DNA from: Maribacter sp. ACAM166
Lineage (GTDB): Bacteria > Bacteroidota > Bacteroidia > Flavobacteriales > Flavobacteriaceae
NCBI RefSeq assembly: GCF_005771495.1
Contig: NZ_VAUW01000003.1
Coordinates: 186,001 to 250,000, forward strand
Length of the DNA: 64,000 nucleotides
Reading direction: 5' to 3'
Position numbers and translations under genes: made by a program. Position 1 is the first letter of the stretch; each line of letters starts with the position of its first letter. Shown here piece by piece: positions 1,642-27,396 of the stretch. The notes below the pieces were generated by a model. That model made no database searches, was not told the origin of the DNA, and was given only the letters and a program-made list of their open reading frames with translations.

Positions 1642-1685
1642 CAAAATTCACATGGTTGGTCTTTTTATACAATGATTCAGATCAG
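1642..1685 (-). promoter_or_regulatory. Crp/Fnr-type promoter of ppsA (site A)
   Basis: On the minus strand the palindrome CTGATCTGAATCAT (1672-1685) fits TGAY-N4-RTCA and the FNR core TGAT-N4-ATCA. After 22 nt comes GAATTTTG (1642-1649), one mismatch from TAnnTTTG. The site centre is about 58 nt upstream of the start codon. It overlaps the stop codon of the preceding gene. Confidence 0.7.
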
Positions 1686-2359
1686 TTGCCCATATTTCTA
1701 CTAGTTTGAACCTCATCATCCTTCGTATTTTTGTCGAGTCTTTTATTTGGTAAACCCATTAACTCTCTTAATGCCCCATGAACAAATGCAATTGGTAATA
1801 TAAGAGCACCGGCTATCAACATCCCCAGTTCATAAAACAAGGAACTCCCTTTGAACGGTGTCCCCTTAAGCCTAGACTGAAATGCACTATAAGGAATGCC
1901 GTACATATTGCCCGAAATCATGAACTGCACGGCGGAAAGCATGATACCCGCTTCTTTTTCGTCATATTCCTTCACGATGGCATCATATGCGTATTTCTTG
2001 GGAAAACCCCTTGAATCGGCAAAATGCTTGGCGAACATAATCGCTTTTGCTTCTTCCGGCTTTATGTATTGGTCGCCACCACTTAAAAAACTGCTTATTT
2101 CCTCACCGCTCATGCCTTGCTGCAAGGCCATTTTGGTATGAAAATAAGAGCAGGCTGGGCATCCGCTCACTTCGGTCACGGCCAATTGCAAACGCTTCAA
2201 AAAATCGGGATCCACGAGCTTGCGTTTATGGTTCCCTATCATTCTTGTCATGGCGCTAGGGAGGGAGGTAAAAGAGCCGTACATCTCCCAAAAACTGAAC
2301 TTATTTTTAAATTCGTTTTGCGACCTTATGGCTTCGGGTATTACGGTGTCCGTTTTCAT
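1682..2359 (-). CDS. AhpD-like carboxymuconolactone decarboxylase family protein
   Basis: A 225-residue protein of the AhpD/CMD family of thiol peroxidase-like proteins. The signature C-x2-C-x3-H is present as CPACSYFH around residues 68-75, preceded by an acidic residue. In AhpD these residues form the redox-active pair and proton relay, so peroxide reduction or a related thiol redox reaction is likely; the partner is unknown. The C-terminal third (MLIAGALILPIAFVHG, about 180-195) is hydrophobic and may sit on a membrane, which is unusual for soluble AhpD. It is 41 nt downstream of the PNPOx-fold gene and probably in the same transcript. Confidence 0.85.
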   Translation of the reverse strand: MKTDTVIPEAIRSQNEFKNKFSFWEMYGSFTSLPSAMTRMIGNHKRKLVDPDFLKRLQLAVTEVSGCPACSYFHTKMALQQGMSGEEISSFLSGGDQYIKPEEAKAIMFAKHFADSRGFPKKYAYDAIVKEYDEKEAGIMLSAVQFMISGNMYGIPYSAFQSRLKGTPFKGSSLFYELGMLIAGALILPIAFVHGALRELMGLPNKRLDKNTKDDEVQTSRNMGN

Positions 2360-2400
2360 TCTTGCGCGGTTTTATGAGTCCTGATTTACAAAAAGAGATT

Positions 2401-2868
2401 TCAACCCTGCCGTTTTTTTCCCGTAATCTCACGTATCTTGATGCGATAGACCACCGGGATTCCTTCTCCTTTCAGCTTGGCCGAAAACTCGCCGATGAAT
2501 TGGGGGTGTTCGTGTTCCCTTTCCGTGATGACCTTCTTCACGCCCTCGGCAAACTGGTGCAACAGGTATTTGGCATCAATCTGCTCTAGTTCTTCGAACA
2601 GACCGTGTACCAGCACCGATCGCCAATGGTTTACCGAGGTAATCTCATCCACCTCCAAGGAAACGTTGCGATTTTTTCGCATAGCTTCTATTTTGTGGCC
2701 TTCCGCTGAATAGCTGATAATACTGTTATGGTCTTTATCGTAATAGTAATAGGTAACGGGAATGATATAAGGTTCTCCCTTTGCTATAAAACCCAAACGG
2801 CCTATGTAGTTTTTGGCGAGCATATCAATACATGTTTTAGTGCTTAAATCTTTTATCATAATTTTCAT
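2401..2868 (-). CDS. Pyridoxamine 5'-phosphate oxidase-fold flavoprotein (NimA/HugZ-like)
   Basis: A 155-residue protein with the split beta-barrel flavin-binding fold. The start (STKTCIDMLAKNYIGRLGF) and centre (GEPYIIPVTYYY, then SAEGHKIEAMRKNRNVSLEV) match the PNPOx-like family that includes NimA-type proteins. Such proteins bind FMN, F420 or haem; the substrate cannot be told from sequence. It is 94 nt downstream of the glycogen synthase-phosphorylase fusion. I found no good promoter of its own, so read-through from the glycogen operon is likely. Proteins of this fold recur in hypoxia and dormancy regulons of other bacteria. Confidence 0.85.
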   Translation of the reverse strand: MKIMIKDLSTKTCIDMLAKNYIGRLGFIAKGEPYIIPVTYYYYDKDHNSIISYSAEGHKIEAMRKNRNVSLEVDEITSVNHWRSVLVHGLFEELEQIDAKYLLHQFAEGVKKVITEREHEHPQFIGEFSAKLKGEGIPVVYRIKIREITGKKRQG

Positions 2869-2962
2869 TTTTACTTTATCGAATTTGTTGTTAGACCTGA
2901 CCGGTTTCCGTTTGTGTCCTATTTATTTCGGTAAAAACTGGTAGGTCAAACGCTATCCCATT

Positions 2963-5900
2963 CTATATCCATTCCACTAAAGGCAGATCTCGACGGTGGT
3001 TCAACCCTTTGTTCTTTGGGTAAAAGCGGATATCGTACTGAAAGGCTCCTGTCATTGATGCCGTAGCTTCGCCCTTGTACAGCGTTCGGTGCTTTTTATG
3101 GGAGACCTTTTTCAATTCTTCCGCTTGACGGACCCGATAGTTGCCGTCGTCGGCACGTTTGGCAATGACCAGTTCTACCCCAATATCATCAGGGGAGAGT
3201 CCGCTTAGGTCCAAGGTAACTTCGGCCTTGAATTTTTCGCCCAGTTCCAAGGGTTTGATACCATCGGAAACCTGAACGTCCACAACGGAGATCTTATCCC
3301 AATTTTCGTTGATATGCTTGCTCCATTCCACCAAGTATTTTAGCTGTTCATAATCGTTTTTTTGCAATTTCTGTATGCGTTCGTACATTTTGTCATAATA
3401 GTTGTGGGCATATTCGTGTAGCATTCGGGCCGTAGTAAAATGGGGAGCGATATGGGCAAAGGCGTTCTTGATCTTGTCCGCCCATTTTTCAGGAATTCCT
3501 TGGGCATTCCTTTCAAAATATTCGGGAATGATCTCGTGTTCCAGCATATTAAAGACCATCTCGGCATCGAGATCGTCTTGATCCTCATCATTGTCGTAGA
3601 TTTTTTCTTTGGGAAGGCACCATCCGGCATCTTCACGATAGCCCTCTGCCCACCAACCGTCCAACACGCTAAAGTTCAAGGTGCCGTTCAGTACCGCTTT
3701 CATACCGCTAGTGCCCGAGGCTTCATGCCCGCGTTCGGGCATGTTCAGCCAAACATCGCATCCTTGAACCAGCAATCGCGCCAAGGCCATGTCGTAATTT
3801 TGGATAAAGAATAGTTTGCCCATAAATTCAGGCCGTTGGGAAAGTTCTACGATATGCCTGATGATTCCTTGACCGGTTTCATCAGCGGGGTGCGCCTTCC
3901 CTGCAAAAATAATTTTAACGGGCCGATCCGTATGGTTCAGTATTTTCGAAAGTCTAACCAAGTCCTTGAAAAGAAGATCCGCACGCTTGTAGGTGGCAAA
4001 GCGTCGGGCAAAGCCGATAAGCAGATCGCCATCGTCTAAACTGTTCAGGGAACCGTATAGTTCCTTGGAGGCGGAATGAAGGGAGAGCATCCTTTTTTTT
4101 ACGGAATCTATCAAGACCGTCTTCATTTCTTTTTTGATTTCCATTATTTTTTTGGAAGGAATTTCCCTGGCCTTGGCCCAATATTTCGCGTTCGAAACAT
4201 CCTGTATAAAATCTTCGCCAAAAGTCTGCTTGAAGATCGATTTCCATTGGTAAGCCGTCCATGTACCAAAATGTACCCCATTGGTCACGTTTTTGATTTC
4301 GAGTTCTTCGGGCAGAAACCCTTTCCATATCGGTGCGAACAATTTTTGGGTCACTTCGGCATGTATTGCACTAACCGTATTGATTTCGCCCGCTGTTCTA
4401 GCGGCCAAATAGGTCATGGAGAAAGCTTCATCGGGATTGGATGGATTCAGTTTGCCCAGCCCCAGAAATTGTTCCCAAGGCATGTTCATGGTCTCGGCAA
4501 AGTGTGCTTGATAGCTGCGCAACAGCACCTCGCCAAAAAGATGCTGTCCGGCGGGCACGGGGGTGTGGGTAGTGAACAGTGTAGAGGCCCTTACGAACTG
4601 TCCGGCTTCCTCAAAACTCAGATTTTCCTGTACCACGAGCTTCACGATACGGATCAGTCCCGTAAATGCCGTGTGGCCTTCGTTGTAATGGAACAGATTT
4701 GGTTTCCACTCCAGTTTTTCAAGCAATTGCACCGTATTTATCGCCAGCAGCAATTCTTGCCGAAAACGGTTGTCGTTGTCCCCGCCATAAAGATTGTGGG
4801 TTATTTTTTTGTTCTCGTCGCTGTTCTCGGGGATGTCCGTATCGAAGAGGTACAGGGGAACACGGCCAACATCCATCCGCCAGACCTGTACGTTGATGAT
4901 CGGACCGCGAAGGGGAAGGGGCAAAATCAGGCGATTGCCATCGGCATCGGTTACCGGCGAAATGGGCAACATGGTAAAATGCTGTTTGACGTAATTGGCC
5001 GTTTGATCGCCATGCAGGGTAAGTCCTTGTTCGAAATAACCGTACCGATAGAGCAATCCGAAGGCGACCAAGTCGGTATTTTGGTCGCTGGCCTCCTTTA
5101 AATAATCCCCTGCCAAAATACCCAATCCGCCAGAATAAATAGGTACGGATTCGTGCAGGCCGTATTCCATACACAGATAGGCTACTTTGGGGCCTATTTT
5201 TTCAGAAGCCTCTTGCATATAGCCATCGAATTCTTCGGAAATGGTATTTAAACGGCCCATGAAATCGGTATCCCTTTCAAGTTGTAGGAAACGGTCATAA
5301 TCCAACGAACTCAATAGGGCAATGGGATTGTGACCGGATTCTTCCCATAATCCCGAATCAATGGAACGGAAGAGTGCGCCCGCTTCGCAATGCCACGTCC
5401 ACCAGAGATTTTTTGCCAGTTTTTCCAAGGCCTTCAGACTGTCGGGCACTTTGAATTTTACCATGGCCTTCTTCCAGATCGGTTCGTTGGATTTTGCTTG
5501 TGGTACGACTATTTTCGGTGTCATCTCGCGCAACCGTACCATCGTTTTGGTACGCAGGCCCTGTCTGTTCAAGGCCAAAGCATAGCACGTTTTGTAGTTT
5601 TGGATCAGATTCTCCCAAAGAAAGAAGCGTGAAATGTCAAAGGCCTTTTTGCGAGCGGACTTCATTTGCAACGCATCCTTTTGGCCGAAGCCAAAAATAT
5701 AATTGGCGATCTGTTCGGTAACGGTACGGTCGTTAAAATCGGAGCGTTCTATGACCAACATGCCCTCTTTATAATCCTTCAGATTCGATTTCACTTGTTT
5801 TCCGAAGCCGGTCAATGTGGTGGTTACGGTTGGTACTTGAAAAGCAAGACTTTCCAAAGGGGTGTACCCAAAAGGTTCGTAATATGATGGAAAAACGGTC

Positions 5901-8411: not shown

Positions 8412-8424
8412 GTTTTCTTTTGGT

Positions 8425-9624
8425 TTAGGCTACGGATGCGTAAGTAGCCGCAACTTTTGCCGCTGTATGGTCCCAAGTAAGGTGTTCTAATGTCCTGCTT
8501 CCGAATTCCTTCACGGTCTTGGAGAGGGACGTATAATTGAGCAGTCCGTTGATGGCCTCGGCGAGCTGATCGGTGTCCCAATAATCGACGAGCAAGGCAT
8601 TGGGCAACACCTCGGCCACGCCCGATTGCCTTGAAATGATCACCGGTACATCGGATCGAATGGCCTCCAAGGGGGCGATACCGAAAGGTTCCGATACCGA
8701 CGGCATGACAAAAACATCACTTATGGAGAGCATTTGATCTACCTCCCTGTTTTTCAAATAGCCCGTAAAATGAAAGCGGTGCGACATCCTTTTGACCGCT
8801 ACTTTTTGGATCATTTCTTGCATCAGATCGCCCGAACCGGCCATAACGAAACGTACGTTCTTGTTTTTCTTGAGTACTTTTTCAGCTGCATCCACAAAAT
8901 ATTCAGGGCCTTTTTGGTAGGTGATCCTTCCTAAAAATGTTACGATTTTATGTTCCAAGGTTTTAGGGTATACATCGGGTTCGCTATTCTTTTGTAGTAC
9001 CCCGTTATAGGTCGTAACGACTTTTCCCGGGGCAATTTTATACTTATTGATGATGGTAGTGCGGGTAAGGTTGCTTACCGCCATCACTTTGTTCGCCGTC
9101 AGCATGCCCTGCCGTTCTATTTCATACACCTGCGGATTGATCCTTGCCGAACGATCGAACTCGGTGGCATGTATATGAACCACCAATGGTTTTCCGCTGA
9201 TTTCCTTGGCCACCATTCCCGCCAAATAGGTAAGCCAGTCATGTGCATGGATTACGTCGAACTCCAAATCCTTGGCCAGTTTTGCGGCCACCACGGCCAA
9301 CCAATGAACCTCTTCCAAAAGGTTGGGGCCGTAGGCGCCCGAAAATTGGTAGGTCTCTTTTTTTAGAAAATCCCGTTGGCCTACATGGGGTAGATGGCGG
9401 TTCAATAGTGCGGTCGTATTGCTATCGGGGCGGTCGGGGAGTACCACATTACTGGCACTTATCAAACGGAACCGATCCGTTGAGATTTCTTCTTCCGCTT
9501 TGGGGATTACGAAGGTAATGTCATGGCCCGCTTTACGTAGACCTTGTACGAGACCGTGGCAAGCGGTCGCCAATCCTCCCGTAATATTTGGCGGGTACTC
9601 CCACCCAAACATCAATATTTTCAT
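8425..9624 (-). CDS. GT4 family glycosyltransferase, probable alpha-glucan synthesis
   Basis: A 399-residue GT-B fold retaining glycosyltransferase. MKILMFGWEYPPNITGGLA at the N-terminus is the Gly-rich acceptor loop. VTFLGRITYQKGPEYFVDAA (about 229-248) opens the second Rossmann domain, and SEPFGIAPLEA near 310-320 holds the E-x7-E nucleotide-sugar motif. Family members include glycogen synthase GlgA-like and maltose-1-phosphate or sucrose-type enzymes. First position in the glycogen operon suggests a glucan synthase or primer-making role, which is inference. A Crp/Fnr-type promoter precedes it and probably drives the whole operon. Confidence 0.9.
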   Translation of the reverse strand: MKILMFGWEYPPNITGGLATACHGLVQGLRKAGHDITFVIPKAEEEISTDRFRLISASNVVLPDRPDSNTTALLNRHLPHVGQRDFLKKETYQFSGAYGPNLLEEVHWLAVVAAKLAKDLEFDVIHAHDWLTYLAGMVAKEISGKPLVVHIHATEFDRSARINPQVYEIERQGMLTANKVMAVSNLTRTTIINKYKIAPGKVVTTYNGVLQKNSEPDVYPKTLEHKIVTFLGRITYQKGPEYFVDAAEKVLKKNKNVRFVMAGSGDLMQEMIQKVAVKRMSHRFHFTGYLKNREVDQMLSISDVFVMPSVSEPFGIAPLEAIRSDVPVIISRQSGVAEVLPNALLVDYWDTDQLAEAINGLLNYTSLSKTVKEFGSRTLEHLTWDHTAAKVAATYASVA

Positions 9625-9655: not shown

Positions 9656-9699
9656 TAAAAGTAAGATGTAGAGAGTCTATTAGAAATGATACAGGTCAG
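9656..9699 (-). promoter_or_regulatory. Crp/Fnr-type promoter of the glycogen operon (site B)
   Basis: On the minus strand CTGACCTGTATCAT (9686-9699) fits TGAY-N4-RTCA. After 22 nt comes TACTTTTA (9656-9663), one mismatch from TAnnTTTG. The same TACTTTTA at the same distance is found at the USP promoter at 14031-14074. Confidence 0.75.
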
Positions 9700-9950: not shown

Positions 9951-10328
9951 ATGGTATCTATTGTGCTTATTGAAGATTACGCCGACATACGGGAGAGTAC
10001 CGCCGAAATTTTGGAACTTGAGGGATATCAAGTAACGACCGCCAAGAACGGAAAAGAGGGACTTGACCATATTCTATCTTCTCCGCCAGACCTCATCATC
10101 TGCGATATGCGGATGCCCGAAATGGACGGACTTACTTTACTAGGTATCTTGGGCAACTCTGCGGACTTAAAACGCGTTCCCTTTATTTTCTTTAGTGCGA
10201 AGTCCGAAAAGGCAGATATTAATTTAGGTATTGAGGCCGGTGCCGACGAATATCTGACCAAACCCTTTGAACTTCAGGATCTTTTGGGAGCGGTACAACG
10301 TTGTTTATTCAAGGGGAAGGTTTCTTAG
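9951..10328 (+). CDS. Receiver-only response regulator (CheY-like)
   Basis: A 125-residue stand-alone receiver domain. The acidic pocket is E8-D9, the phospho-acceptor is D52 (LIICDMRMPEMDGL), the switch residue is the Ser in FFSAKS, and the conserved Lys is in EYLTKPFE. There is no output domain, so it must act by binding another protein, as in phosphorelays or stand-alone regulators. I chose the ATG at 9951 because the protein then starts MVSIVLIEDYADIRE as usual for the family; an upstream GTG inside the tandem repeat gives an implausible extension. No kinase gene is adjacent. The upstream repeat may tune its expression (inference). Confidence 0.93.
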   Translation: MVSIVLIEDYADIRESTAEILELEGYQVTTAKNGKEGLDHILSSPPDLIICDMRMPEMDGLTLLGILGNSADLKRVPFIFFSAKSEKADINLGIEAGADEYLTKPFELQDLLGAVQRCLFKGKVS

Positions 10329-10513: not shown

Positions 10514-10557
10514 CTGACCCACGTCATTGTGATGCGCTCGCCACGCCCTTAATTTTG
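10514..10557 (+). promoter_or_regulatory. Crp/Fnr-type promoter of the dodecin gene (site E)
   Basis: CTGACCCACGTCAT (10514-10527) fits TGAY-N4-RTCA. After 22 nt comes TAATTTTG (10550-10557), a perfect TAnnTTTG. The start codon is 56 nt further on. Confidence 0.75.
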
Positions 10558-10613: not shown

Positions 10614-10820
10614 ATGTCAGTTTTAAAAGTAATAGAGATTTTAGGCAACTCGACCAAGAGTTTTGAAGACGCCGTACAAAACATTGTAAATGAGGCATCC
10701 AAGTCCGTAAAGAACATTAAATCCGTCTATATCAATGATATGCAGGTTTGCGTAAAGGACAATAAAATATCCGAATACCGTGTCAACGCCAAAGTTACCT
10801 TTGGTATTATGCAGGAATAG
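10614..10820 (+). CDS. Dodecin family flavin-binding protein
   Basis: A 68-residue dodecin. The family pattern is clear: MSVLKVIEILGNSTKSFEDA at the start, then KNIKSVYINDMQVCVKDNKI and EYRVNAKVTFGIM. Dodecins assemble into hollow dodecamers that store or buffer flavins, such as riboflavin, FMN or lumichrome. The gene is alone, preceded by a Crp/Fnr-type promoter and followed by a strong hairpin. Its place beside flavin-using proteins (PNPOx-fold, nitroreductase, flavodoxin-like) fits flavin storage under stress; this is inference. Confidence 0.93.
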   Translation: MSVLKVIEILGNSTKSFEDAVQNIVNEASKSVKNIKSVYINDMQVCVKDNKISEYRVNAKVTFGIMQE

Positions 10821-10965: not shown

Positions 10966-11009
10966 TTGATTTTCGTCATTGTGGTTTGCATATTTACTTG
11001 GCAACTTTA
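10966..11009 (+). promoter_or_regulatory. Crp/Fnr-type promoter of the methyltransferase gene (site F)
   Basis: TTGATTTTCGTCAT (10966-10979) fits TGAY-N4-RTCA. After 22 nt comes CAACTTTA (11002-11009), two mismatches from TAnnTTTG but at the same spacing as the other sites. The start codon is 17 nt further on. Confidence 0.65.
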
Positions 11010-11025: not shown

Positions 11026-11664
11026 ATGGAAACTACAAAAGCATTTGACGCACACGTCACGGAATACGAGAAGTGGTATGAAAACCACCCTGAGGCTTAT
11101 CAGTCTGAAATTTTGGCTTTACAGGAACAGTTTTTAAAGCTGCCCCAGAACCTTCATGGGATAGAGGTCGGAGTCGGTACCGGAAGGTTTTCCGAACCTT
11201 TGGGCATTAAAGAAGGTATAGAACCCTCTGCCGAAATGGCCAGACTGGCACAAAAAAGAGGAATCGAAATTATGGACGGGGTCGCCGAACGTTTGCCCTA
11301 TGCGGCTATGAAGTTCGATTTCGTGCTTTTCGTTACCGTTTGTTTTTTAAAGGATATCAAAAGTGCTTTTAAAGAAGCCCACAGGGTACTGAAACCAAAT
11401 GCCTCGATTATTATAGGTTTCTTGGATAGCGATCGCGAAATTGCCAAGCAATACCATGAAAAACGGCATCGCAGTAATTTTTATCAGAATGCCCGTTTTT
11501 ATACCGTTGATCGAATTAAAAATCTTCTTAAGGAGACTGGATTCAAAGATTTGGAATTCAACCAGACTCTGTTCGGAAAATTGGAGGATATTGAAGAGGT
11601 GCAAGTTCCAAAAACGGATTTTGGCAAAGGGTCTTTTGTTACGGTACGGGCGATAAAGAAGTGA
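11026..11664 (+). CDS. Class I SAM-dependent methyltransferase
   Basis: A 212-residue methyltransferase. Motif I is GIEVGVGTGRFSEPL (about 46-60), motif II/III is GVAERLPYAAMKFDFVLFV, and post-motif IV is EAHRVLKPNASIIIGFLD. This is the UbiE/Methyltransf_11 type. The substrate cannot be predicted. It is monocistronic with its own Crp/Fnr-type promoter and opposes the PRTase gene. No damage is seen. Confidence 0.9.
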   Translation: METTKAFDAHVTEYEKWYENHPEAYQSEILALQEQFLKLPQNLHGIEVGVGTGRFSEPLGIKEGIEPSAEMARLAQKRGIEIMDGVAERLPYAAMKFDFVLFVTVCFLKDIKSAFKEAHRVLKPNASIIIGFLDSDREIAKQYHEKRHRSNFYQNARFYTVDRIKNLLKETGFKDLEFNQTLFGKLEDIEEVQVPKTDFGKGSFVTVRAIKK

Positions 11665-13115: not shown

Positions 13116-14009
13116 TTAGATTTTTTGTTCTCCAAATTCTTGACCTCTTCTTTGTTCACGCCCAATATTCTTTTTGTTGAAGCTCAATAGCGGAAAATGT
13201 CCTTCGCTCTTCATGCGTTTGACCAGATCGCGATGTCGCAAGTCTTTGATCAGGCCATGACCCTCGCGTTCCAACATGACGATCATATCAGGTTCGATTT
13301 CGTTGACATAATTTTGTAAGGCGGCAAAAATATCCTCCCCGTAACGCAGGTCAAAACGTGTCTTTTTATAAACGACCTTATGGCGCAGCATGTTCTTGAA
13401 CCAATGCAGTTGGTCTTCTGCGGTTTTTTTGTCCTTGTCCGTAATATGTACCAAACGAATCTCCGCATCAAAAGGTTCGGCAAGCCTGACGAGATCCTCG
13501 ATGGTAAAAATGTCGGAACCTTCAAAATCGGAGGCATAAACGATAAGCTGCAACTCGTTATACTTGGTGCCGAGTGGTATGGCCAGTACCGGGCAATAGG
13601 CCTTTTCGATGAGGGCGGCGGCGGTGCTGCCGAGAAAAAACTTGCGTAACGGGCTATCGCCTTTGGTGCCCACTACAATCAAATCGGTTTCGGTTTCGTC
13701 GGCCTTTTCGAGAATGCCTTCCCATATCGTTTCGTCCTCCACAATTTTTATCGAAATGTTGAGTTTATCGGGGTCGTTGCCCAAATGGCGGGCGCAGTAA
13801 GCTTGTAGTTTTTCCTTGTCCTTTGCGAATGCCTTCACCTCCCTGCGCGAATAGGTCAGCGATACTGCACTTGCCCAGTTGATCTGCATATCGAACACAT
13901 GAATAGCCACCAACTGCGCGTTCAGTTTTTTGCTCAGTCCGTAGGCATAATGCAGAGCGGCTACTGACTTTTCCGAATAATCGGTAGCGTATAAAATGGT
14001 ATTCATCAC
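13116..14009 (-). CDS. Universal stress protein, two USP domains
   Basis: A 297-residue tandem USP. Domain 1 begins MNTILYATDYSEKSVAALHYA and ends with the ATP-binding pattern GTKGDSPLRKFFLGST (about 119-134) followed by CPVLAIP. Domain 2 (about 150-285) starts LQLIVYASDFEGSD but lacks a clear G-x2-G-x9-G-S/T motif, so only the first domain is expected to bind ATP. It is first gene of an operon with the hydrolase and PRTase genes. Its promoter has the Crp/Fnr-type palindrome. It acts in the cytoplasm during growth arrest or oxygen limitation (family knowledge plus inference). Confidence 0.92.
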   Translation of the reverse strand: MMNTILYATDYSEKSVAALHYAYGLSKKLNAQLVAIHVFDMQINWASAVSLTYSRREVKAFAKDKEKLQAYCARHLGNDPDKLNISIKIVEDETIWEGILEKADETETDLIVVGTKGDSPLRKFFLGSTAAALIEKAYCPVLAIPLGTKYNELQLIVYASDFEGSDIFTIEDLVRLAEPFDAEIRLVHITDKDKKTAEDQLHWFKNMLRHKVVYKKTRFDLRYGEDIFAALQNYVNEIEPDMIVMLEREGHGLIKDLRHRDLVKRMKSEGHFPLLSFNKKNIGREQRRGQEFGEQKI

Positions 14010-14030: not shown

Positions 14031-14074
14031 TAAAAGTAACCGGATACCTGATTGGGTAAAATGACTCCCGTCAG
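14031..14074 (-). promoter_or_regulatory. Crp/Fnr-type promoter of the USP operon (site C1)
   Basis: On the minus strand CTGACGGGAGTCAT (14061-14074) fits TGAY-N4-RTCA. After 22 nt comes TACTTTTA (14031-14038), one mismatch from TAnnTTTG. It is back to back with site C2. Confidence 0.8.
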
Positions 14075-14093: not shown

Positions 14094-14137
14094 ATGATTA
14101 TGGTCATTTTGGGAATAACGCTTCCATACTACATTTG
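14094..14137 (+). promoter_or_regulatory. Crp/Fnr-type promoter of the small-protein operon (site C2)
   Basis: ATGATTATGGTCAT (14094-14107) fits TGAY-N4-RTCA. After 22 nt comes TACATTTG (14130-14137), a perfect TAnnTTTG. Together with C1 it makes a divergent promoter pair controlled by the same type of site. Confidence 0.8.
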
Positions 14138-14165: not shown

Positions 14166-14309
14166 ATGAGCATAAAAAACAATGGTCCCGAGCCCTATTT
14201 TTTAAAAATGTTTCGGCAAAACCGAAAAGAAATCTTTGCCCAGACCGAGTACGCCATCGATGGTGAAAAATTGGCCCATAGTGTTAAATCTTTAAATTGC
14301 TTAACATGA
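14166..14309 (+). CDS. Small protein, 47 residues, function unknown
   Basis: A short basic/polar protein starting MSIKNNGPEPYFLKMF and ending KSLNCLT. I do not recognise a family. Support for it being real: it is placed 28 nt after a perfect -7 box, and its TGA overlaps the ATG of the next gene (ATGA at 14306-14309), the usual sign of translational coupling. It would be missed by gene finders with a 60-residue cut-off. Confidence 0.6.
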   Translation: MSIKNNGPEPYFLKMFRQNRKEIFAQTEYAIDGEKLAHSVKSLNCLT

Positions 14310-18418: not shown

Positions 18419-18462
18419 ATGATTAGAATCATTTTTAAACATACGGTTAATGATTATTTTGG
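18419..18462 (+). promoter_or_regulatory. Crp/Fnr-type promoter of the lipoprotein pair (site H)
   Basis: ATGATTAGAATCAT (18419-18432) fits TGAY-N4-RTCA and the FNR core. After 22 nt comes TATTTTGG (18455-18462), close to TAnnTTTG; the start codon is 47 nt further on. The -7 match is the least certain of the set. Confidence 0.6.
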
Positions 18463-18509: not shown

Positions 18510-19235
18510 ATGAAAAAAACCATTTTTATGATTTCTCTCGGAACTATGTTAGCCTGCCAAGGGCAGGAACATAAAAAGGAGCAATCCCAAACAAAAGCTG
18601 CGGGCCCTAGCAGCACCGAACGTACTGGACACGACAATAAAGAAGACCATGCACCGGGATCGGCAAATGAGTACATGCACCAATCTAAGGTGGAAGATCT
18701 TGTAGAGCGTTTTGAATCGCCCGAACGGGATGCCTACCAAAAACCAGAAAAAGTATTGGAATTTCTTGGCGATATCTCGGACAAAACAATTATGGATATT
18801 GGTGCAGGCTCCGGATATTTTTCGGTGAAGTTGGCAAAAAATGGTGCAAATGTCATCGCTGCGGACGTAAATGAAGAGTTTCAGGCCTTATTGAACGAAC
18901 GGATCAAAAAAGAGAACATACAACAACTGACCACAAGAAAGATTCCGTACGATTCGCCCGGTCTGGAAGAAAAGGAAGTAGATATGGTGCTTATCGTAAA
19001 CACCTATCACCACATAGAAAACCGCCCAGATTATTTTGCCAAGGTCAAAAAAGGACTAAAAGCTAATGGCGAACTGGTCATCATCGATTTTTTTGATGCG
19101 GATATTCCAGTTGGCCCCAAGCACCATAAAATTTCCATAGATACCGTAATCAGCGAATTAAAGCAGGCCGGGTACACCCATTTTGAGGTGGAAGCAGATT
19201 TATTACCTTATCAATATATCATAACATCTAAATAA
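18510..19235 (+). CDS. Lipoprotein with a class I SAM methyltransferase domain
   Basis: A 241-residue protein. MKKTIFMISLGTMLAC is a lipoprotein signal with lipobox Cys16. A low-complexity linker (about 17-65) follows, then a methyltransferase domain: motif I MDIGAGSGYFSVKLA (about 91-105), acidic AADVNEEF, and VDMVLIVNTYHHIENRPDY. The family is widespread in Bacteroidota. An exported SAM-dependent enzyme is odd, because SAM is not expected outside the cytoplasm; the domain may have another role. It forms an operon with the next lipoprotein (8-nt gap). Confidence 0.85.
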   Translation: MKKTIFMISLGTMLACQGQEHKKEQSQTKAAGPSSTERTGHDNKEDHAPGSANEYMHQSKVEDLVERFESPERDAYQKPEKVLEFLGDISDKTIMDIGAGSGYFSVKLAKNGANVIAADVNEEFQALLNERIKKENIQQLTTRKIPYDSPGLEEKEVDMVLIVNTYHHIENRPDYFAKVKKGLKANGELVIIDFFDADIPVGPKHHKISIDTVISELKQAGYTHFEVEADLLPYQYIITSK

Positions 19236-19243
19236 TACTAATT

Positions 19244-20080: not shown

Positions 20081-20108
20081 AAAGCTTCGCGAACGATTGC
20101 GGAGCTTT
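20081..20108 (+). terminator. Probable transcription terminator after the lipoprotein operon
   Basis: AAAGCTTCGC (20081-20090) pairs with GCGGAGCTTT (20099-20108) with one mismatch, followed by GTTATTGT. The tail is only partly T-rich. Confidence 0.4.
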
Positions 20109-20540: not shown

Positions 20541-20683
20541 TACGGACTGAATCCAGAATACCTGAAAGTAATTTATTAAAGCCCTAACAGATTTGCCTCC
20601 AATGATTCCTGTTCGAGAGCTGTTAAAATGTATTGAGTTTTGTAGAATAAAAGAAAAACCTGTTAGGTCTGAATTAAAAACCG

Positions 20684-21768: not shown

Positions 21769-21788
21769 TTTGTCATTTTCTAAATTTA

Positions 21789-21860
21789 TGTCATTCCGAC
21801 GAGGGAGGAATCCGTTTGACGGAGCGAATTTACGTGGGATTCCTCCTGCGTCAGAATGAC
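21789..21860. repeat. Dispersed intergenic palindromic repeat, copy 2
   Basis: GTCATTCCGACGAGGGAGGA on the left pairs with TCCTCCTGCGTCAGAATGAC on the right, with few mismatches. The centre GGAATCCGTTTGACGGA and CGTGGGATTCC matches copy 1 at 10358-10437. It sits just after a pseudogene and before a small gene. Confidence 0.8.
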
Positions 21861-21885
21861 AAAACGCCCAATATGAAGTAGCACT

Positions 21886-22044
21886 ATGAAAACAAACAAA
21901 GCATGGGATCAAGCCCATAAAATGCCAAAAAATGCCACTACCGACCAACGTATCGCATGGCATTTGGAACATAAAAAGAACTGCGATTGTAGGGATATCA
22001 CCGACAAGTTAAAAGTCGAAATAAAGAAAAGAGGACTGATCTGA
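21886..22044 (+). CDS. Small protein, 52 residues, function unknown
   Basis: Starts MKTNKAWDQAHKMPKNATTD and contains RIAWHLEHKKNCDCRDI, where two Cys and two His could bind a metal. Ends KKRGLI. It is too short for many gene finders. It is intact although genes on both sides are broken. The start codon follows the palindromic repeat by 25 nt, and the next (damaged) gene starts 7 nt after its stop. I assign no function. Confidence 0.6.
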   Translation: MKTNKAWDQAHKMPKNATTDQRIAWHLEHKKNCDCRDITDKLKVEIKKRGLI

Positions 22045-22051
22045 TGTTACG

Positions 22052-22383
22052 ATGAAAAGGGAACTGCTCATCATCAAGAGTGTCCACACCGTAATCTGGT
22101 TGTTCTTCAATGGGGTCTCTTTTACTTGCTTTATGCGGTAATCATCAACAAAATAGACCAATGGGTCTGGCAATGTGTTGGCCTCGTCATAGCAGAAGGC
22201 TCGGTGTTGCTTGCGTTCAAATGGTTCTGTCCGCTTACGGTAGTTGCCCGAAAATATTCGGATAGCACGAAAGAGAACTTTGATGTTTTTTTGCCGAACT
22301 GGTTGGCCAAACATAACGAATTGATTTACACGAGCATATTCGGGGCCGCTATCATGATTTTGATATATCGGATACTCTTTTAG
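22052..22383 (+). pseudogene. Small integral membrane protein, frameshifted
   Basis: Starts MKRELLIIKSVHTVIWLFFN and ends early at a TAA after FTCFMR. Adding one T to the T4 run at 22120-22123 restores FYLLYAVIINKIDQWVW and the rest, ending SIFGAAIMILIYRILF at 22383. About 110 residues with three or four membrane helices in the intact form. Function unknown. Confidence 0.75.
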
Positions 22384-22450
22384 TAAAAAAGATCAAACCT
22401 TAAAAGTTGGAATCCTAGAAAATCTTTGAGGTTCCAAATTCTTTTCCGAA

Positions 22451-22494
22451 CTGATAACGGTCATTTCCAAAACCTTCCGGATAAAGTAATTTTC
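22451..22494 (+). promoter_or_regulatory. Crp/Fnr-type promoter of the 135-aa/TerB operon (site G)
   Basis: CTGATAACGGTCAT (22451-22464) fits TGAY-N4-RTCA. After 22 nt comes TAATTTTC (22487-22494), one mismatch from TAnnTTTG. The start codon is 29 nt further on. Confidence 0.75.
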
Positions 22495-22522
22495 CGTCTA
22501 ATCCAATAAAGAAATCCCTAAG

Positions 22523-22930
22523 ATGCTAGGAGAAAGAAACACCCCTGAAGAATTGCTGACTGCGTTCCATCATGATGCCGAATGGTGGAAATCGACTGTT
22601 GGCTATATCGAAAATGAGATTGAATTCGTCAATAGGCTGTTGAATGCCCATGTGTTCAAAGAGAACACGCCCAATCTTTTTGAGCATTTGCAACAGTTCA
22701 AACATGTTATGGGGACGAAAACCAGGGAGACATCTAACCTAAAGAAAGAAATCCTCGAATACGAAGATAAACTACGGGGCATTTTAGAATGTCAAGATGT
22801 AGCTTGCGACACCTATTATCTGGAAAATCACAAAGCATTAAAGGAACGTTTTGAGGATTTCTATATCGGATTTAACGATTATAAAACAAAAGTTTTCGAT
22901 TATCTTGGAGCTATCCTGCTTACGAAATAA
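22523..22930 (+). CDS. Helical protein, 135 residues, function unknown
   Basis: Starts MLGERNTPEELLTAFHHDAE and appears all-helical with long amphipathic stretches (KTRETSNLKKEILEYEDKL), perhaps a helical bundle or coiled coil. It has two Cys within CQDVAC. No known family was recognised. It has a Crp/Fnr-type promoter and is followed after 41 nt by the TerB-like gene. A role in the same stress response is inferred from regulation only. Confidence 0.7.
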   Translation: MLGERNTPEELLTAFHHDAEWWKSTVGYIENEIEFVNRLLNAHVFKENTPNLFEHLQQFKHVMGTKTRETSNLKKEILEYEDKLRGILECQDVACDTYYLENHKALKERFEDFYIGFNDYKTKVFDYLGAILLTK

Positions 22931-22971
22931 GAAAGTATCGAATGCACAGTAATTTAAACCATAAATAGAAA

Positions 22972-23373
22972 ATGTCAATCTTAGAAGCATACGAATCAGG
23001 TGCCCATGAAAGCAATGTAGCACACTTTGCCGCAATCGTTAAATTGGCGACTGTAGATGGGACTATAAATCTGGAGGAGAAGATTGTTTTAGCCCGATTG
23101 GCCTTTAAGCTCGATGTTTCCGACGAAGAGGTCAAGCCGATATTGAAACATCCGGAGAAGTATCCGTTGCTACCACCCTATACTTTGGAAGAACGTATTG
23201 AGCGGCTTCATGACTTGTTTAGTGTCATTTACGCCGATAGTGAAATCGATGCCGAAGAACAAAAACTGATTTACAAATATGCCATTGGTCTGGGTTTTTC
23301 AAGTGAAAGGGCAACCCAGGAAATCGAGAAATGTATCCGAGTCTTCGGTGGAGAGGCCGAGTTTGAGGATTGA
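22972..23373 (+). CDS. TerB-like protein
   Basis: A 133-residue all-helical protein of the TerB/DjlA-N fold. Two acidic repeats are visible: LATVDGTINLEEKIVLARL (about 24-42) and VIYADSEIDAEEQKLIYKYA (about 84-103), matching the D-G-x-I-x-x-E-E pattern of TerB. TerB-like domains bind metal ions and sit in stress complexes linked to tellurite resistance, but this single gene is not part of a ter operon. Probably cotranscribed with the 135-residue gene. Confidence 0.8.
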   Translation: MSILEAYESGAHESNVAHFAAIVKLATVDGTINLEEKIVLARLAFKLDVSDEEVKPILKHPEKYPLLPPYTLEERIERLHDLFSVIYADSEIDAEEQKLIYKYAIGLGFSSERATQEIEKCIRVFGGEAEFED

Positions 23374-23435
23374 CGGTCTACTCTAAGTCCCTGTTTTTTT
23401 TGTTCTAGAGTTAAAAATCTATTCCCTATTTTGGT

Positions 23436-24263
23436 ATGAATGCCACAATGAGTGCCCAACGCCCCTTTTCGCTTAAACTTTTTCTGTTCATCGTTATTCT
23501 GCTTTCTTGGCCCTTTCAAATCGCTTATTTTTTTCTAGGGGAGGAATACAAGCCACTGCTTTTGCTATCTATGGTTATGGTCGGGGTCGCCACCTTCGTT
23601 TCAGGAAAATGGGTATTCAAAAATGAGTTTAATGGAGCGGGATAGCATTGGGGCAGGCCTCGACATTACCTGTATGTGTTTGTTTTGGTATTGTGGTTAT
23701 GGCTTTTTCCGAGTATGATGGAAATGGTATTGGGTTTTTATGAGCCAAGCGGCAACTATAATGTTAGTGGTATTTTGTTTGCATTTGGGTCAAGTACATT
23801 GCTTACTATCGTTCCAGCATTTGGCGAAGAATTTGGCTGGCGTGGCTATTTGTTGCCCCAGTTGCTCAAAAAGTATTCGTATCGAAAAGCATTGCTCTTA
23901 CACGGATTGGTTACGTGGATTTGGTATCTTCCTGTGCTAATTTTCATGGGAACGCAGACAGGAAACAACCTATTGTTCTTTATTCCCGTTGTTTTAGTGG
24001 CCAGTTTTATCCCCACGATCATGCACGCCGTTGTGTTTGCCTATATTTGGAACCGCACTGCCAGCTTGGCGGTTGTATCCGCCTATCACGTCTTTTTTGA
24101 CGAAATACGGGATACTTTGGAAAACTCTGTGGGACTAGGGTTTTTAGGGCAGAACTGGCAAATGCTCGTACTGACCGTTTTGGGGATGTTGGTTTTGTGG
24201 AAGACCAAATGGAAATTGGTCCAAGAAACCAAGGTACGGCCAACTGACCAAGGTCATGGTTAA
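23436..24263 (+). pseudogene. CPBP family intramembrane metalloprotease, split by an in-frame TAG
   Basis: Starts MNATMSAQRPFSLKLFLF and stops at TAG (23643-23645, codon 70) after EFNGAG. The same frame goes on HWGRPRHYLYVFVLVLWLW to 24263. A single change of TGG to TAG would explain it. The protease motifs are intact beyond the stop: EEFGWRGYLLPQL (motif 1, the E-E-x3-R type) and, later, the His motifs around LLHGLVTW and MHAVVFAYIW. Whether a shorter product from an internal start is made is unknown. Confidence 0.85.
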
Positions 24264-24287
24264 ACTATCGGTTGCCCCTTATATTTG
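24244..24287 (+). promoter_or_regulatory. Crp/Fnr-type promoter of the AI-2E permease gene (site K)
   Basis: CTGACCAAGGTCAT (24244-24257) fits TGAY-N4-RTCA. After 22 nt comes TATATTTG (24280-24287), a perfect TAnnTTTG. The palindrome overlaps the last codons of the CPBP pseudogene. The start codon is 40 nt further on. Confidence 0.75.
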
Positions 24288-24326
24288 TTTCAAATCAAAA
24301 CGGATAACCTTTAGGTTGCTGAACAT

Positions 24327-25462
24327 ATGCAAAAATACACCCTTAATCTGGCCAATATTTTTTATCTGCTTTTTATCGTCATCGCGATGATATGGATTCT
24401 TATTGTCGGAAAGGTGGTTATCGTTCCCTTGGTATTCAGTTTTTTTTTGCTCTGATGTTGAAGCCCATCGTAGGTTTTTTTGAGAGGAAGTTGCGCAATC
24501 GCATTTTGGCCATATTCCTCTCCTACGTTTTGGCTTTGATTCCCCTCTTCGCCCTACTGTTGTTCTTTATCAACCAATCGCGCATTCTGTTCAGCGACCT
24601 ACCGTCGGTGCGAGGCCGGTTGAACGAGGTCATGACTTCGGCCTTCGAATGGTTGGACGATAAATTCCGTTTGGATGCTGATTCGACTTCACAATGGATT
24701 TCCGATAACATTCTGGTCGCCTCAGATATTCCCATCAACTTGATCCAAGAAAGTGTTCAATCTACAGGTTATGTCATAGCAAATATGGTTTTTATCGTGG
24801 TCATCACATATTTTATGCTGTTGTACAGAACGGCTTTCAAAAACTTCTTTCTGGCCCAAATAAAACCTGAAAGTAGGGAAAGGGTAGTAGAAGTATTGCA
24901 TAAAATACAGACCTTGACGAAACGCTATATGATGGGCCAGGGGGCGGTTATCGTGATACTTGGCCTGTTGATAGGATCGGGACTTTGGTTGATAGGGGTG
25001 CCTTACCCATTTTTTTGGGGGTTTTTGGCGGGCTTTTTGGAAATCATTCCCTACGTCGGTACCTCCATCGGTGGTATTTTGCCCGTCTTTTACATGTTGA
25101 TGGTGTCCGATACCCTGTGGCAACCGGTGGCGGTGGTCGTTCTCTATATCATCGTACAACAAATCGAGGGAAATATTATTTCGCCCAACATTATGGGGCC
25201 GAGCATCAAGATCAATCCCATGTTCATTATCCTTGGACTTTTTATCGGTGGAATTCTGTGGGGAATCTCGGGAATGATCCTCGCCCTACCCATCTTGGCG
25301 GTATCGAAGGAAATATTTAGAAGTTTCGATGCCACAGAACCCTTGAGCTATCTCATGGAAAACGGACTTTCGAGAAAGAGCGCTATTTTCTTGGAACGGT
25401 TCGACCATGATAAGAATCGTTTGTTCCGCTTGTTTTTTGAAGAGCTCGCAACGAAACCGTAA
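24327..25462 (+). pseudogene. AI-2E family transporter, frameshifted in a T9 run
   Basis: The N-terminus MQKYTLNLANIFYLLFIVIA is read from 24327. After PLVFSFFLL it hits a TGA. The T9 run at 24440-24448 is one T short: with ten T the frame reads FSFFFALMLKPIVGFFERKL and continues uninterrupted to 25462. The rest is a normal AI-2E (UPF0118) permease: GVPYPFFWGFLAGFLEIIPY and QQIEGNIISPNIMGPSIKI are family motifs. It could be a slippage-prone on/off gene or a pseudogene. Its promoter is intact. Confidence 0.82.
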
Positions 25463-25471
25463 AGCTCGGTA

Positions 25472-26320
25472 CTAACTTCTATCGGGAAGCACCAAAAACG
25501 GAACATCGGAATACATACTGACATCCTTGATGACAGGTTCATGGGTCAACCGTTCAAAAAGATTATGCCTACGTTGTACCATGGCGAACAGATCTACCTT
25601 TAATTTATCCAAAAAAGCATCGATGACCTTGGCCTTATCGCTAAAATCGTACATCTGGTGGAACGAATGTTCGGTATCCCTTAGACATTCCTCCAAACCT
25701 CTCCGGTTGGTTTCTTGAGCGGGACTCAACAATTGTTCTTCGTTGATGTGCATGACCCGTATGGCTGCGTTTGAAAGTTTGGCCAAGAACAAAAGGGGCG
25801 CAATGGTTTCCGGATGGCAGCCCGTTTTATAGTCGGTCACAAAGGCGATTTCTTTAGGCGGTGTAAAATCCATTTCTCCCGGGATGGCCAGCACGGGACA
25901 TTCTTTAAGATGGTTCACCACTTTTATGGTATTGTTTCCGAAGAACATATCCGCAGTATCCGTAAGACCTTTGTTGCCCATTACTACAAGGTCTATATTT
26001 TCCTTTGCTATAATTTTGACAACGGTTTTTACCAAATCGCCATTTTGGGAAATGGTCTTGAATGTGTGCTTATCGTTACCATTGTCCAAAACAATTTTAT
26101 GAAACGTCTCGGTCAATTTTTCCTCGGATTCCGTTTTTAACTCCCGCATCAATTTTTTACTTCCAAAGAGAGGGGCAACTTTGCCATGTAAGGGAGTAAG
26201 TTCATTGTAGGTGTTCAACAGGATAAAGTTACACGGCTTCGATTTTAAAAGCTGTGTTGCATAGAACAAGGCACAATAGGCGTTGTTCGAAAAATCGGTG
26301 GCTACTAGGATGTTTTTCAT
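25472..26320 (-). CDS. Universal stress protein, two USP domains
   Basis: A 282-residue tandem USP. Domain 1 starts MKNILVATDFSNNAYCALFYA and has the nucleotide motif GNKGLTDTADMFFGNNT near 115-131, with N in place of the usual S/T after the last G, followed by CPVLAIP. Domain 2 (about 150-280) is degenerate. It follows the next USP gene by 10 nt in one operon. Convergent with the damaged AI-2E permease gene (9 nt between the ends). Confidence 0.9.
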   Translation of the reverse strand: MKNILVATDFSNNAYCALFYATQLLKSKPCNFILLNTYNELTPLHGKVAPLFGSKKLMRELKTESEEKLTETFHKIVLDNGNDKHTFKTISQNGDLVKTVVKIIAKENIDLVVMGNKGLTDTADMFFGNNTIKVVNHLKECPVLAIPGEMDFTPPKEIAFVTDYKTGCHPETIAPLLFLAKLSNAAIRVMHINEEQLLSPAQETNRRGLEECLRDTEHSFHQMYDFSDKAKVIDAFLDKLKVDLFAMVQRRHNLFERLTHEPVIKDVSMYSDVPFLVLPDRS

Positions 26321-26330
26321 GATAATCGAT

Positions 26331-27167
26331 TCATAATTGTGGCAGCACCATAAATGGGATCTGTATATGAAAACCTATTTTCTTGATGACAGGTTCGATA
26401 AAAAGCCGTTCAAAAAAAGTATGCTTGTTCTGAACCATGACCAAAAGATGTATTTTTTCTTTCGTTTGACAGTTATTGACCGCAGCAATTATGGCATTAT
26501 CGGGTACATCGTGCAAAAGGCAATTTTTGCCGAATATTTTTTTAACCTGCTTCTTGTTCTTTTCCTGTTCTTCGGTAAGGTCAAACCCTGTGGATACATG
26601 CATAATGTGTACCCTTGAACCTTGCACTTTGGTTATATCGAGCAACTGCTTGAATTTTTCTTCTTCATATTCGATTTCGAAGTCCGTAGGGAAAAGAATC
26701 TCTTTGGGTGCGATATATTCGAAATTTGGCGGTACGACGATTACAGGACATTTTGATTTTTTTATCACATGCACCGCATTGGTACCGAACAAAATTTCTT
26801 TGGCACCGGTCGCACCTTTGGTCCCCATAACGACCAAATCGATTTTTTCTGCCTCAATGGTTTCCAAAACTTCGTTTAGAATGGAATTCATGGCGGTATG
26901 GACCATGAATTTGTGATTTGGGTTATGGTATTGGTTTTCCAAACGTTTTTGTAATTTTTCCAATTGTCTCAATGAGCTTTCTTGGAATATATCGCCCAAA
27001 CCTATCTGTCCGGGGCTACCCAGCACATATTCCGGCTCATACACCGGCGGGTTGTAGGTATGCAATAAATAGAATGTACATGTAACATCTTTTAGAACGA
27101 GCAAGGCGTACCTGATGGCTTCAAATGAGTTATCGGAAAAGTCCGTTGGTAATAAAATTCGTTTCAT
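26331..27167 (-). CDS. Universal stress protein, two USP domains
   Basis: A 278-residue tandem USP. Domain 1 starts MKRILLPTDFSDNSFEAIRY and carries GTKGATGAKEILFGTNA near 116-132, then CPVIVVPP. Domain 2 begins KEILFPTDFEIEYEEE and ends VMVQNKHTFFERLF, as in the neighbouring USP, so the two are paralogues. Promoter proximal in the two-gene operon; the Crp/Fnr-type site D lies upstream. Confidence 0.9.
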   Translation of the reverse strand: MKRILLPTDFSDNSFEAIRYALLVLKDVTCTFYLLHTYNPPVYEPEYVLGSPGQIGLGDIFQESSLRQLEKLQKRLENQYHNPNHKFMVHTAMNSILNEVLETIEAEKIDLVVMGTKGATGAKEILFGTNAVHVIKKSKCPVIVVPPNFEYIAPKEILFPTDFEIEYEEEKFKQLLDITKVQGSRVHIMHVSTGFDLTEEQEKNKKQVKKIFGKNCLLHDVPDNAIIAAVNNCQTKEKIHLLVMVQNKHTFFERLFIEPVIKKIGFHIQIPFMVLPQL

Positions 27168-27192
27168 CCTTCATTTATTTAAGTTCAAAGAA

Positions 27193-27236
27193 CAAAATTA
27201 TAGGGCACGGATGACAAGCACCATGATTTTGGTCAG
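27193..27236 (-). promoter_or_regulatory. Crp/Fnr-type promoter of the double USP operon (site D)
   Basis: On the minus strand CTGACCAAAATCAT (27223-27236) fits TGAY-N4-RTCA. After 22 nt comes TAATTTTG (27193-27200), a perfect TAnnTTTG. The site centre is about 62 nt upstream of the start codon. Confidence 0.8.
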
Positions 27237-27352
27237 GCTGGGCCATTGATTTTATGGTTTCGATTTTTTAGGAACAGGGCTGTGTAGAAGGGTATTGTTT
27301 TTTGCCAAAAGCATTGCCGAAAGAGAAGAAACTTCCCAAGTTTTTGAGTTGA

Positions 27353-27396
27353 ATGATTTACATCATTTTAAAATGTGTTGAAGCTGCCTAATTTCG
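27353..27396 (+). promoter_or_regulatory. Crp/Fnr-type promoter of the L,D-transpeptidase/SOD operon (site Q)
   Basis: ATGATTTACATCAT (27353-27366) fits TGAY-N4-RTCA. After 22 nt comes TAATTTCG (27389-27396), one mismatch from TAnnTTTG. The start codon of the first gene is 20 nt further on. Confidence 0.75.

Follow-up and report, generated by a model that had tools for sequence, protein, structure and literature searches.

Eleven promoters in a 64,000-nucleotide (nt) stretch of the Maribacter sp. ACAM166 genome (contig NZ_VAUW01000003.1, positions 186,001 to 250,000; the window below) share one architecture, a TGAY-N4-RTCA palindrome followed after exactly 23 nt (spacing N23) by a box close to TAnnTTTG. 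The initial annotation had taken them for a Crp/Fnr-type regulon with class II-like promoters, and this reading is supported by the N23 phasing, by the predicted -41.5 geometry of the palindromes, by FNR-type recognition helices seen in the alignment of candidate regulators, and by low-oxygen genes that carry such sites. The regulon is larger than first described (83 phased placements in 561 kb), family-wide, and located in part on a conjugative-type island. Its main factor is probably a hybrid two-component regulator that joins a receiver to a Crp-type protein (REC-CRP), two parts that as a rule belong to different proteins, and acts beside an FNR orthologue. With a probability of roughly 0.7, the elements are class II promoters activated mainly by the REC-CRP protein of the island under the control of a PAS-domain kinase, with FNR serving the respiratory branch and the island being mobile. 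Word searches of the open-licence literature found no description of a receiver-Crp regulon in Bacteroidota, and to our knowledge little is known about the general survival response of this ecologically dominant phylum with its own sigma box.

Phased promoters in the window

All eleven elements are present in the window sequence (Table 1), and the reported quality of their boxes is exact, with four perfect, six with one mismatch, and one (11002) with two. Their positions needed small corrections: plus-strand sites had been placed one base too low (10514 is really 10515, and so on), and the minus-strand numbers 1642, 9656, 14031, and 27193 refer to the lower coordinate of the box, whereas the corresponding palindromes are at 1673, 9687, 14062, and 27224. 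A start codon does follow every element, as had been claimed, in each case as an ATG 16-56 nt past the end of the box; at the 14095 and 24245 sites the nearest ATG opens frames of just 47 and 42 codons.

Altogether 14 TGAY-N4-RTCA palindromes occur in the window, against 4.1 on average in 200 dinucleotide-preserving shuffles (standard deviation 2.0, maximum 9), which agrees with the earlier estimate of about four per 64 kb by chance. Three of the 14, at 3579, 46245, and 50535, stand outside the phased pattern. Ten sites have a box with at least five of its six defined letters (5/6) at N23, compared with 0.07 in the shuffles (maximum 1), and none of the other spacings from 5 to 59 is represented by more than two. 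At nine of the eleven sites the palindrome continues as RTCA-TT.

Spacing enrichment in the genome and the family

The host genome comprises 4.92 Mb in 114 contigs, the window lying on contig C61. A genome-wide scan with shifted spacings, which had been proposed as a test, found N23 enriched over the other spacings rather than level with them. Among 51 pairs of a palindrome and a perfect TAnnTTTG box at spacings 8-38, 35 are at exactly N23, and each of the other 30 spacings contributes at most two; the reversed pattern has 14 matches summed over all 31 spacings and none at N23. Imperfect boxes were counted in 561 kb of the 4.92 Mb, in stretches chosen partly for their sites. These stretches contain 125 palindromes, of which 76 are phased at N23 with a box of 5/6 or better, 69 on one side and seven on both, giving the 83 phased placements; other spacings from 5 to 79 yield 0-9 placements each.

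The same spacing prevails in the family. Across 149 Flavobacteriaceae genomes from 148 genera, scanned for perfect boxes, there are 1235 sites at N23 versus 24 reversed controls, and 139 of the genomes have at least one. Pooled, the spacings from N24 to N33 yield 556 matches (about 56 for each of the ten) with 322 reversed controls. The highest N23 count of the 149 genomes, 35, belongs to the genome that contains the window.

Promoter geometry

In a start-site map of Flavobacterium psychrophilum (PMC9723704), the TAnnTTTG box occupies positions -12 to -5. Given this position and the N23 spacing, the palindrome would extend from -47 to -36 with its centre at -41.5, in agreement with the centre near -41 proposed in the initial annotation. 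A centre at -41.5 is the class II position, and a fixed spacing of this kind marks class II activation. This geometry suggests that the factor bound to the palindrome acts as an activator. The flanks of the palindrome are lopsided: at the 35 perfect sites of the genome, RTCA is followed by T in 31, and TGAY is preceded by C or A in 33.

Candidate regulators

HTH_Crp_2 has nine matches in the host genome. Three are full-length REC-CRP proteins composed of a receiver, a cNMP-like domain, and a Crp-type helix-turn-helix (C61:127630-128700, C51:29115-30185, and C79:3373-4425), with PF00072, PF00027, and PF13545 above cut-off in each copy. A fragment without the receiver and without part of the cNMP domain is encoded at C38:67977-68408, within a site cluster; in fact all three genes as well as the fragment lie in or beside such clusters. 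The C61 gene is on the same island as the window, about 57 kb to the left of the window edge. Residues D9, D52, and K104 are unchanged in the three copies. In contrast to E72, R82, S83, T127, and S128, which contact cAMP in CRP, the C61 protein has Q, Y, L, V, and Q at the aligned positions. Such a loss of the cAMP-contacting residues fits switching by phosphorylation (at D52) and not by a nucleotide. The equivalents of CRP E181 and R185 are kept, and R180 is absent.

The REC-CRP genes are associated with genes for PAS histidine kinases. A multi-PAS kinase gene (C61:123837-127499) adjoins the C61 gene in convergent orientation, and on C51 and C79 a PAS kinase gene is located directly upstream. 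We also compared the best 80 of 549 REC-CRP loci, picked by the protein alone and nearly all from Bacteroidota (L134, L135, and L161 are labelled as other phyla). A kinase gene lies within 4 kb of REC-CRP in 78 of the 80, in 74 of them directly upstream on the same strand. The first PAS domain of the C61 kinase has as its best PDB match 10jx, a kinase PAS (E 4e-19), followed by FixL (9e-11) and DosP. For the first PAS of the C79 kinase, the matches are DosP (7e-16) and FixL. In both kinases a His is aligned with the heme ligand of FixL and DosP. Among the nearest kinases of the 78 loci, a strict heme motif is found in 17 and a looser one in 33, the remaining 45 being unmatched and not judged. 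The aligned His suggests that the kinase may sense oxygen.

The genome also encodes an FNR orthologue (C114:131845-132534), in which a CxxC and the central Cys align with those of FNR and the third N-terminal Cys position is Asn; this pattern is the same in all five copies compared. A palindrome precedes the gene in each of the five (the host included), with a phased box in four, and the host gene has a perfect phased site at C114:132592-132603. A third Crp/Fnr protein, of the PREVVSR type, is encoded inside the island (C61:180163-180831).

Two additional observations concern the REC-CRP family. Three related genomes contain a pair of REC-CRP genes 23-25 kb apart (G010:C16, G034:C314, and G050:C1), suggesting a recurring pair of paralogues. 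REC-CRP relatives are also found on six plasmid records from Hymenobacter, Spirosoma, and Runella.

Co-occurrence of sites and regulators

To the 149 family genomes we assigned REC-CRP by a full-length match with E <1e-90 and FNR by a best E <=1e-50, cut-offs that were chosen after seeing the tables. REC-CRP scoring covered 13 candidates per genome in this set and 10 in the class-wide set described below, and genomes without a listed match were counted as lacking the gene, so that some genes may be missed. The density of perfect phased sites is 0.33 per Mb in the 22 genomes with neither regulator, 1.83 in the 53 with FNR only, 2.59 in the 31 with REC-CRP only, and 3.55 in the 43 with both. A linear fit attributes about five sites to each REC-CRP gene and about four to FNR. 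Where REC-CRP is the only regulator, 93 of 272 sites have the RTCA-TT flank; the corresponding counts are 36 of 352 with FNR only, 170 of 593 with both regulators, and 1 of 18 with neither. Taken together, co-occurrence and flank counts indicate that both factors appear to read one phased site class, with TT favoured in REC-CRP genomes. By their flanks, the sites of the window look mainly REC-CRP-type; the shares of the two regulators are statistical and are not assigned site by site.

These data also bear on the possibility that the FNR orthologue alone drives all phased sites, in which case REC-CRP would merely accompany stress islands as a bystander. In its favour are the palindromes before the FNR gene in all five copies, the classical low-oxygen genes with phased sites, and the 1.83 sites per Mb of FNR-only genomes. 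However, the 31 genomes that have REC-CRP but no FNR orthologue reach a still higher density, TT-flanked sites track REC-CRP, and sites cluster at REC-CRP genes. We therefore regard this explanation as unlikely, although it is the strongest of the competing ones.

Several results weigh against REC-CRP as the main activator of a mobile class II regulon. The genomes share ancestry, which makes the p-values for the effect of REC-CRP on site density (5e-10 without FNR and 3e-8 with FNR) too small. The flank idea arose from some of the genomes on which it was later tested, and FNR-only genomes are rich in sites as well, so that either factor may act at a given site. Nor is the phasing absolute: 16 of 60 listed N24-N33 matches in the family are at N24, versus 3-8 at each of the others. 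A TTG near -33 is equally frequent at 45 unphased (0.178) and 17 phased (0.176) boxes, so that the idea of a palindrome replacing a -33 element is unsupported and provides no argument for activator dependence. The distal Arg of FixL, present in the C79 kinase, is absent from the C61 kinase. Finally, no att repeats were found for the island, only one chance-like 17-base repeat away from its ends. As to the slight N24 excess, the palindromes are often of the same style, which suggests a minor class one base longer.

From the computed phasing, gene content, co-occurrence, and domain make-up we infer the following model of binding, activation, signal, and mobility. A Crp/Fnr-type dimer on TGAY-N4-RTCA at -41.5 would help RNA polymerase to use the TAnnTTTG box, the elements being read by the Bacteroidota housekeeping sigma factor. 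At the window sites the main activator would be the C61 REC-CRP. The C61 kinase would respond to low oxygen, or to some related cue of redox or energy state, leading to phosphorylation of receiver Asp52, and the phosphorylated protein would turn on survival genes, including those for universal stress proteins (USPs), BON proteins, HSP20, dodecin, enzymes of glycogen and phosphoenolpyruvate synthesis, superoxide dismutase (SOD), and L,D-transpeptidase. The chromosomal FNR orthologue would read the same site class and run the respiratory branch (cbb3, HemN, NirK/NosZ).

Tandem operators outside the Flavobacteriaceae

In the 80 REC-CRP loci, N23 is again the most frequent spacing, with 136 placements (box of at least 5/6); in the range from 10 to 40, every other spacing has between 1 and 16. 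Extension of the range revealed a second peak at N45 (81 placements versus 8 at N44 and 17 at N46), a spacing with four placements in the Maribacter genome. The second peak arises because palindromes are paired exactly 22 bp apart, at -63.5 and -41.5. When sites closer than 40 bases to the end of a locus are set aside, a second palindrome (six or more of eight letters) stands at +22 from 67 of 78 N45 sites and at -22 from 44 of 61 N23 sites in the loci from outside the Flavobacteriaceae, compared with a mean of 1.15 at other offsets. The -22 partner is absent from the 83 N23 placements in the Maribacter stretches and from all 74 of the 17 loci named as Flavobacteriaceae; one of two N45 sites in these 17 has a partner, and L099 (UBA3356) looks partly tandem. 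Tandem palindromes near REC-CRP genes are seen in L098-L162, for example at L138:9082, L116:9070, and L143:5385.

A search of 197 genomes of the class for the tandem pattern gave 163 sites in 75 genomes and no reversed matches. REC-CRP is present in 56 of these 75, compared with 41 of the 122 genomes without tandem sites (p=2e-8); the other 19 tandem-bearing genomes have no REC-CRP at the chosen cut-off, and one Flavobacteriaceae genome (G242) has a tandem site. On REC-CRP contigs, 12 of 53 listed tandem sites are within 120 nt of the REC-CRP gene and 33 within 10 kb. On a tree of 79 REC-CRP proteins, from which four short loci were omitted and in which the three Maribacter proteins were hand-labelled as single, the single and tandem labels cluster, with 8 changes where shuffled labels need about 20. 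Every locus from L083 to L097 is single, whereas C79, some Hymenobacteraceae, and other loci are single amid tandem relatives.

The tandem sites are relevant to a second alternative, in which the palindromes are repressor operators and a dimer at -41.5 blocks polymerase until a signal releases it. Such a site would overlap the -35 region, and activator and repressor are indistinguishable by sequence alone. Nevertheless, repression would scarcely require a single fixed distance to the box, the fixed -41.5 position is a hallmark of class II activation, and the -63.5/-41.5 pairs of other Bacteroidota fit co-activation, all of which makes repression improbable. We consider slightly less probable still that the PREVVSR-type protein is the local activator. 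Its gene is preceded by a perfect phased site with a palindrome common to the divergent gene, but its recognition helix differs from the FNR type, and the HTH_Crp_2 search shows just one other such gene, on C114, which leaves none in the clusters on C38, C51, C63, C66, and C79; this protein is more likely a target than an activator. At this locus a single palindrome (C61:180070-180081) is shared by a pair of divergent promoters, both with a perfect N23 box, in front of genes for a DUF302 protein and the PREVVSR-type regulator. An artefact of chance or base composition is refuted by the shuffles, the reversed pattern, and the shifted spacings, none of which reproduces the phasing, and can be given practically no weight.

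Genes preceded by phased sites

The targets named in the initial annotation are recovered by Pfam: PPDK, glycogen-type enzymes, dodecin, USPs, methyltransferases, TerB, YkuD, and Fe/Mn SOD. TerB, YkuD, and SOD are later genes of possible operons. The window targets also include glycogen-type glycosyltransferases, a phosphorylase, and an AI-2E-type protein.

Table 1. Phased promoters and other features of the window. Coordinates are window positions; fractions give matches to the six defined letters of the TAnnTTTG box.
Feature	Position (strand)	Palindrome	Box	Context
Phased promoter	1642..1684 (-)	1673-1684	GAATTTTG 1642-1649 (5/6)	Upstream of PPDK gene (start 1620, continues beyond window)
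Phased promoter	9656..9698 (-)	9687-9698	TACTTTTA 9656-9663 (5/6)	Upstream of glycogen-synthase-like glycosyltransferase 8425-9624
Phased promoter	10515..10557 (+)	10515-10526	TAATTTTG 10550-10557 (6/6)	Upstream of dodecin 10614-10820
Phased promoter, weakest of set	10967..11009 (+)	10967-10978	CAACTTTA 11002-11009 (4/6)	Upstream of methyltransferase 11026-11664
Phased promoter	14031..14073 (-)	14062-14073	TACTTTTA 14031-14038 (5/6)	Upstream of USP 13116-14009
Phased promoter	14095..14137 (+)	14095-14106	TACATTTG 14130-14137 (6/6)	Followed by small open reading frames without assigned function (47 amino acids; 73 amino acids at 14306)
Phased promoter	18420..18462 (+)	18420-18431	TATTTTGG 18455-18462 (5/6)	Upstream of methyltransferase 18510-19235
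Phased promoter	22452..22494 (+)	22452-22463	TAATTTTC 22487-22494 (5/6)	Upstream of reading frame 22523-22930 (function unassigned), then TerB-like 22972-23373
Phased promoter	24245..24287 (+)	24245-24256	TATATTTG 24280-24287 (6/6)	Upstream of AI-2E-type membrane protein 24392-25462
Phased promoter	27193..27235 (-)	27224-27235	TAATTTTG 27193-27200 (6/6)	Upstream of USP 26331-27167, then USP 25472-26320
Phased promoter	27354..27396 (+)	27354-27365	TAATTTCG 27389-27396 (5/6)	Upstream of 27416-27655 (function unassigned), then YkuD 27728-28639, Fe/Mn SOD 28636-29364
Lone receiver-domain protein (Response_reg)	9951..10328 (+)			48% identity over 115 amino acids to C51 REC-CRP; flanked by two divergent phased promoters
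Bacteroidetes-type conjugation genes	31396..47286 (-)			TraQ, DUF4138, TraG P-loop, coupling protein of type IV secretion system

Elsewhere on the island, sites of varied box quality are found near genes for HSP20, BON, YtxH, baeRF-type, DUF302, and DUF2267 proteins, an E1-type dehydrogenase, HlyD, and a molybdopterin oxidoreductase. On other contigs, phased sites precede genes for cbb3-type CcoNO, a P-type ATPase, a HemN-like protein, and a USP, as well as operons with NirK-like and NosZ-like genes, the latter the third gene of its cluster. At C63:3437-3479 a phased site with a 5/6 box is located upstream of an ATP-synthase alpha/beta-type gene heading a gene cluster. A respiratory gene set of this kind is the classical FNR set. 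In an orthologue comparison, an upstream phased site was found for 53 of 203 relatives of target genes versus 32 of 394 relatives of other genes. We rely on no more than the direction of this difference, since single queries weigh heavily in it: the FNR protein, which we take to match the genes for REC-CRP, accounts for 58 of the target misses, and the C79 kinase for 12 of the control matches.

Two side observations may be added. Three similar phased sites at C61:182323, 182613, and 182911 (minus strand) follow each other at about 290-300 bp, as if a small transcription unit had been repeated. The lone receiver of the window, which resembles the REC-CRP receivers, could compete for phosphate.

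The conjugative-type island

The GC content of C61 is 41-45% at about 110-240 kb, compared with 34-36% outside. We took the island as the region of about 103-262 kb (about 159 kb), its left end being a guess from GC and gene content; it contains the window together with its own REC-CRP and kinase genes. A relaxase (C61:253787-254809) and a tyrosine recombinase (C61:260741-261931) are encoded to the right of the window; the recombinase gene adjoins a gene of chromosomal type, which we take to be YebC. Thus the secretion system, coupling protein, relaxase, and integrase genes of an integrative-conjugative element are all present, and the regulator and its promoters may travel together. A search for tRNA genes in five pieces, taken from the window and from the surroundings of the island ends, found none. 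The assembly has an estimated contamination of 4.58%, so that a foreign origin is possible for some of the low-GC contigs; the C61 island is contained in a single contig, with flanks of the GC content usual for the genome.

Relatives with at least 50% identity in stretches of C38, C51, C66, C63, C79, C114, and C68 are found for 32 of 139 island genes, including REC-CRP (69%), PPDK (82%), and what is presumably an RND-type pump (86%), so that the programme appears to have a native counterpart in the host. If this is true, a conjugative-type element would bring a stress regulon, both regulator and cis sites, into a host with a version of its own.

Comparison with known systems

In the rhizobial FixL-FixJ-FixK2 and hFixL-FxkR-FixK cascades, as described in two reports (PMC5582078, PMC7888657), an oxygen-type kinase and a response regulator lead to a Crp/Fnr-type output; the axis of a TTGA/TCAA-like palindrome lies 40.5 bp from the nosR start site, and FnrN works alongside. 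The Maribacter system resembles this description in its kinase, response regulator, and Crp/Fnr-type output on a similar palindrome, with an FNR-type protein alongside, and differs in its mainly stress-survival targets and the TAnnTTTG box of Bacteroidota. With receiver and Crp-type output in one protein, REC-CRP has one step fewer, and the system may work like FixL-FixJ-FixK with the last two steps fused, by analogy and with no claim of membership in that system.

Class II promoters of E. coli FNR have a TTGAT-N4-ATCAA-type core centred at -41.5 and a -10-type box starting from -12. The Maribacter promoters share the core type and, by their predicted geometry, the centre and the start of the box at -12, but the sigma box differs and a second, phosphorylation-type regulator would act on the same site class. 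In mycobacteria, the heme-type kinases DosS and DosT with the response regulator DosR control many USPs at low oxygen. By its sequence the Maribacter system has the same components, a putative heme-type kinase, a response regulator, and USPs, whereas DosR, unlike REC-CRP, is LuxR-type and not on a conjugative island. The transmissible locus of stress tolerance of Proteobacteria is likewise a mobile-type island with HSP20 and FtsH- and DegP-like stress genes; it belongs to another phylum and has another gene set, and no regulator acting there on dozens of phased promoters is known to us.

A wider proposal, which we hold tentatively and at somewhat less than even odds, is that REC-CRP, controlled by a FixL-like kinase, plays in Bacteroidota the part that RpoS, SigB, and DosR play elsewhere. 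It would be a phylum-wide switch for surviving a shortage of oxygen or energy and could travel, together with its phased promoters, on conjugative islands and plasmids. Its operator would vary by lineage, from two dimers in tandem with a 22-bp offset (-63.5/-41.5) in most of the Bacteroidota loci compared to a single -41.5 dimer in Flavobacteriaceae. The resulting hypothesis has a named regulator and a cis code that can be read from sequence (palindrome-N23-TAnnTTTG or the 22-bp tandem), and it predicts targets in well over a hundred genomes. One regulator family with two operator layouts, split mostly by lineage, also constitutes a natural experiment in promoter evolution.

Within the conjugative part of the island, the window encodes a protein of 1668 amino acids (53755-58761) with matches to SNF2 and helicase C-terminal domains.

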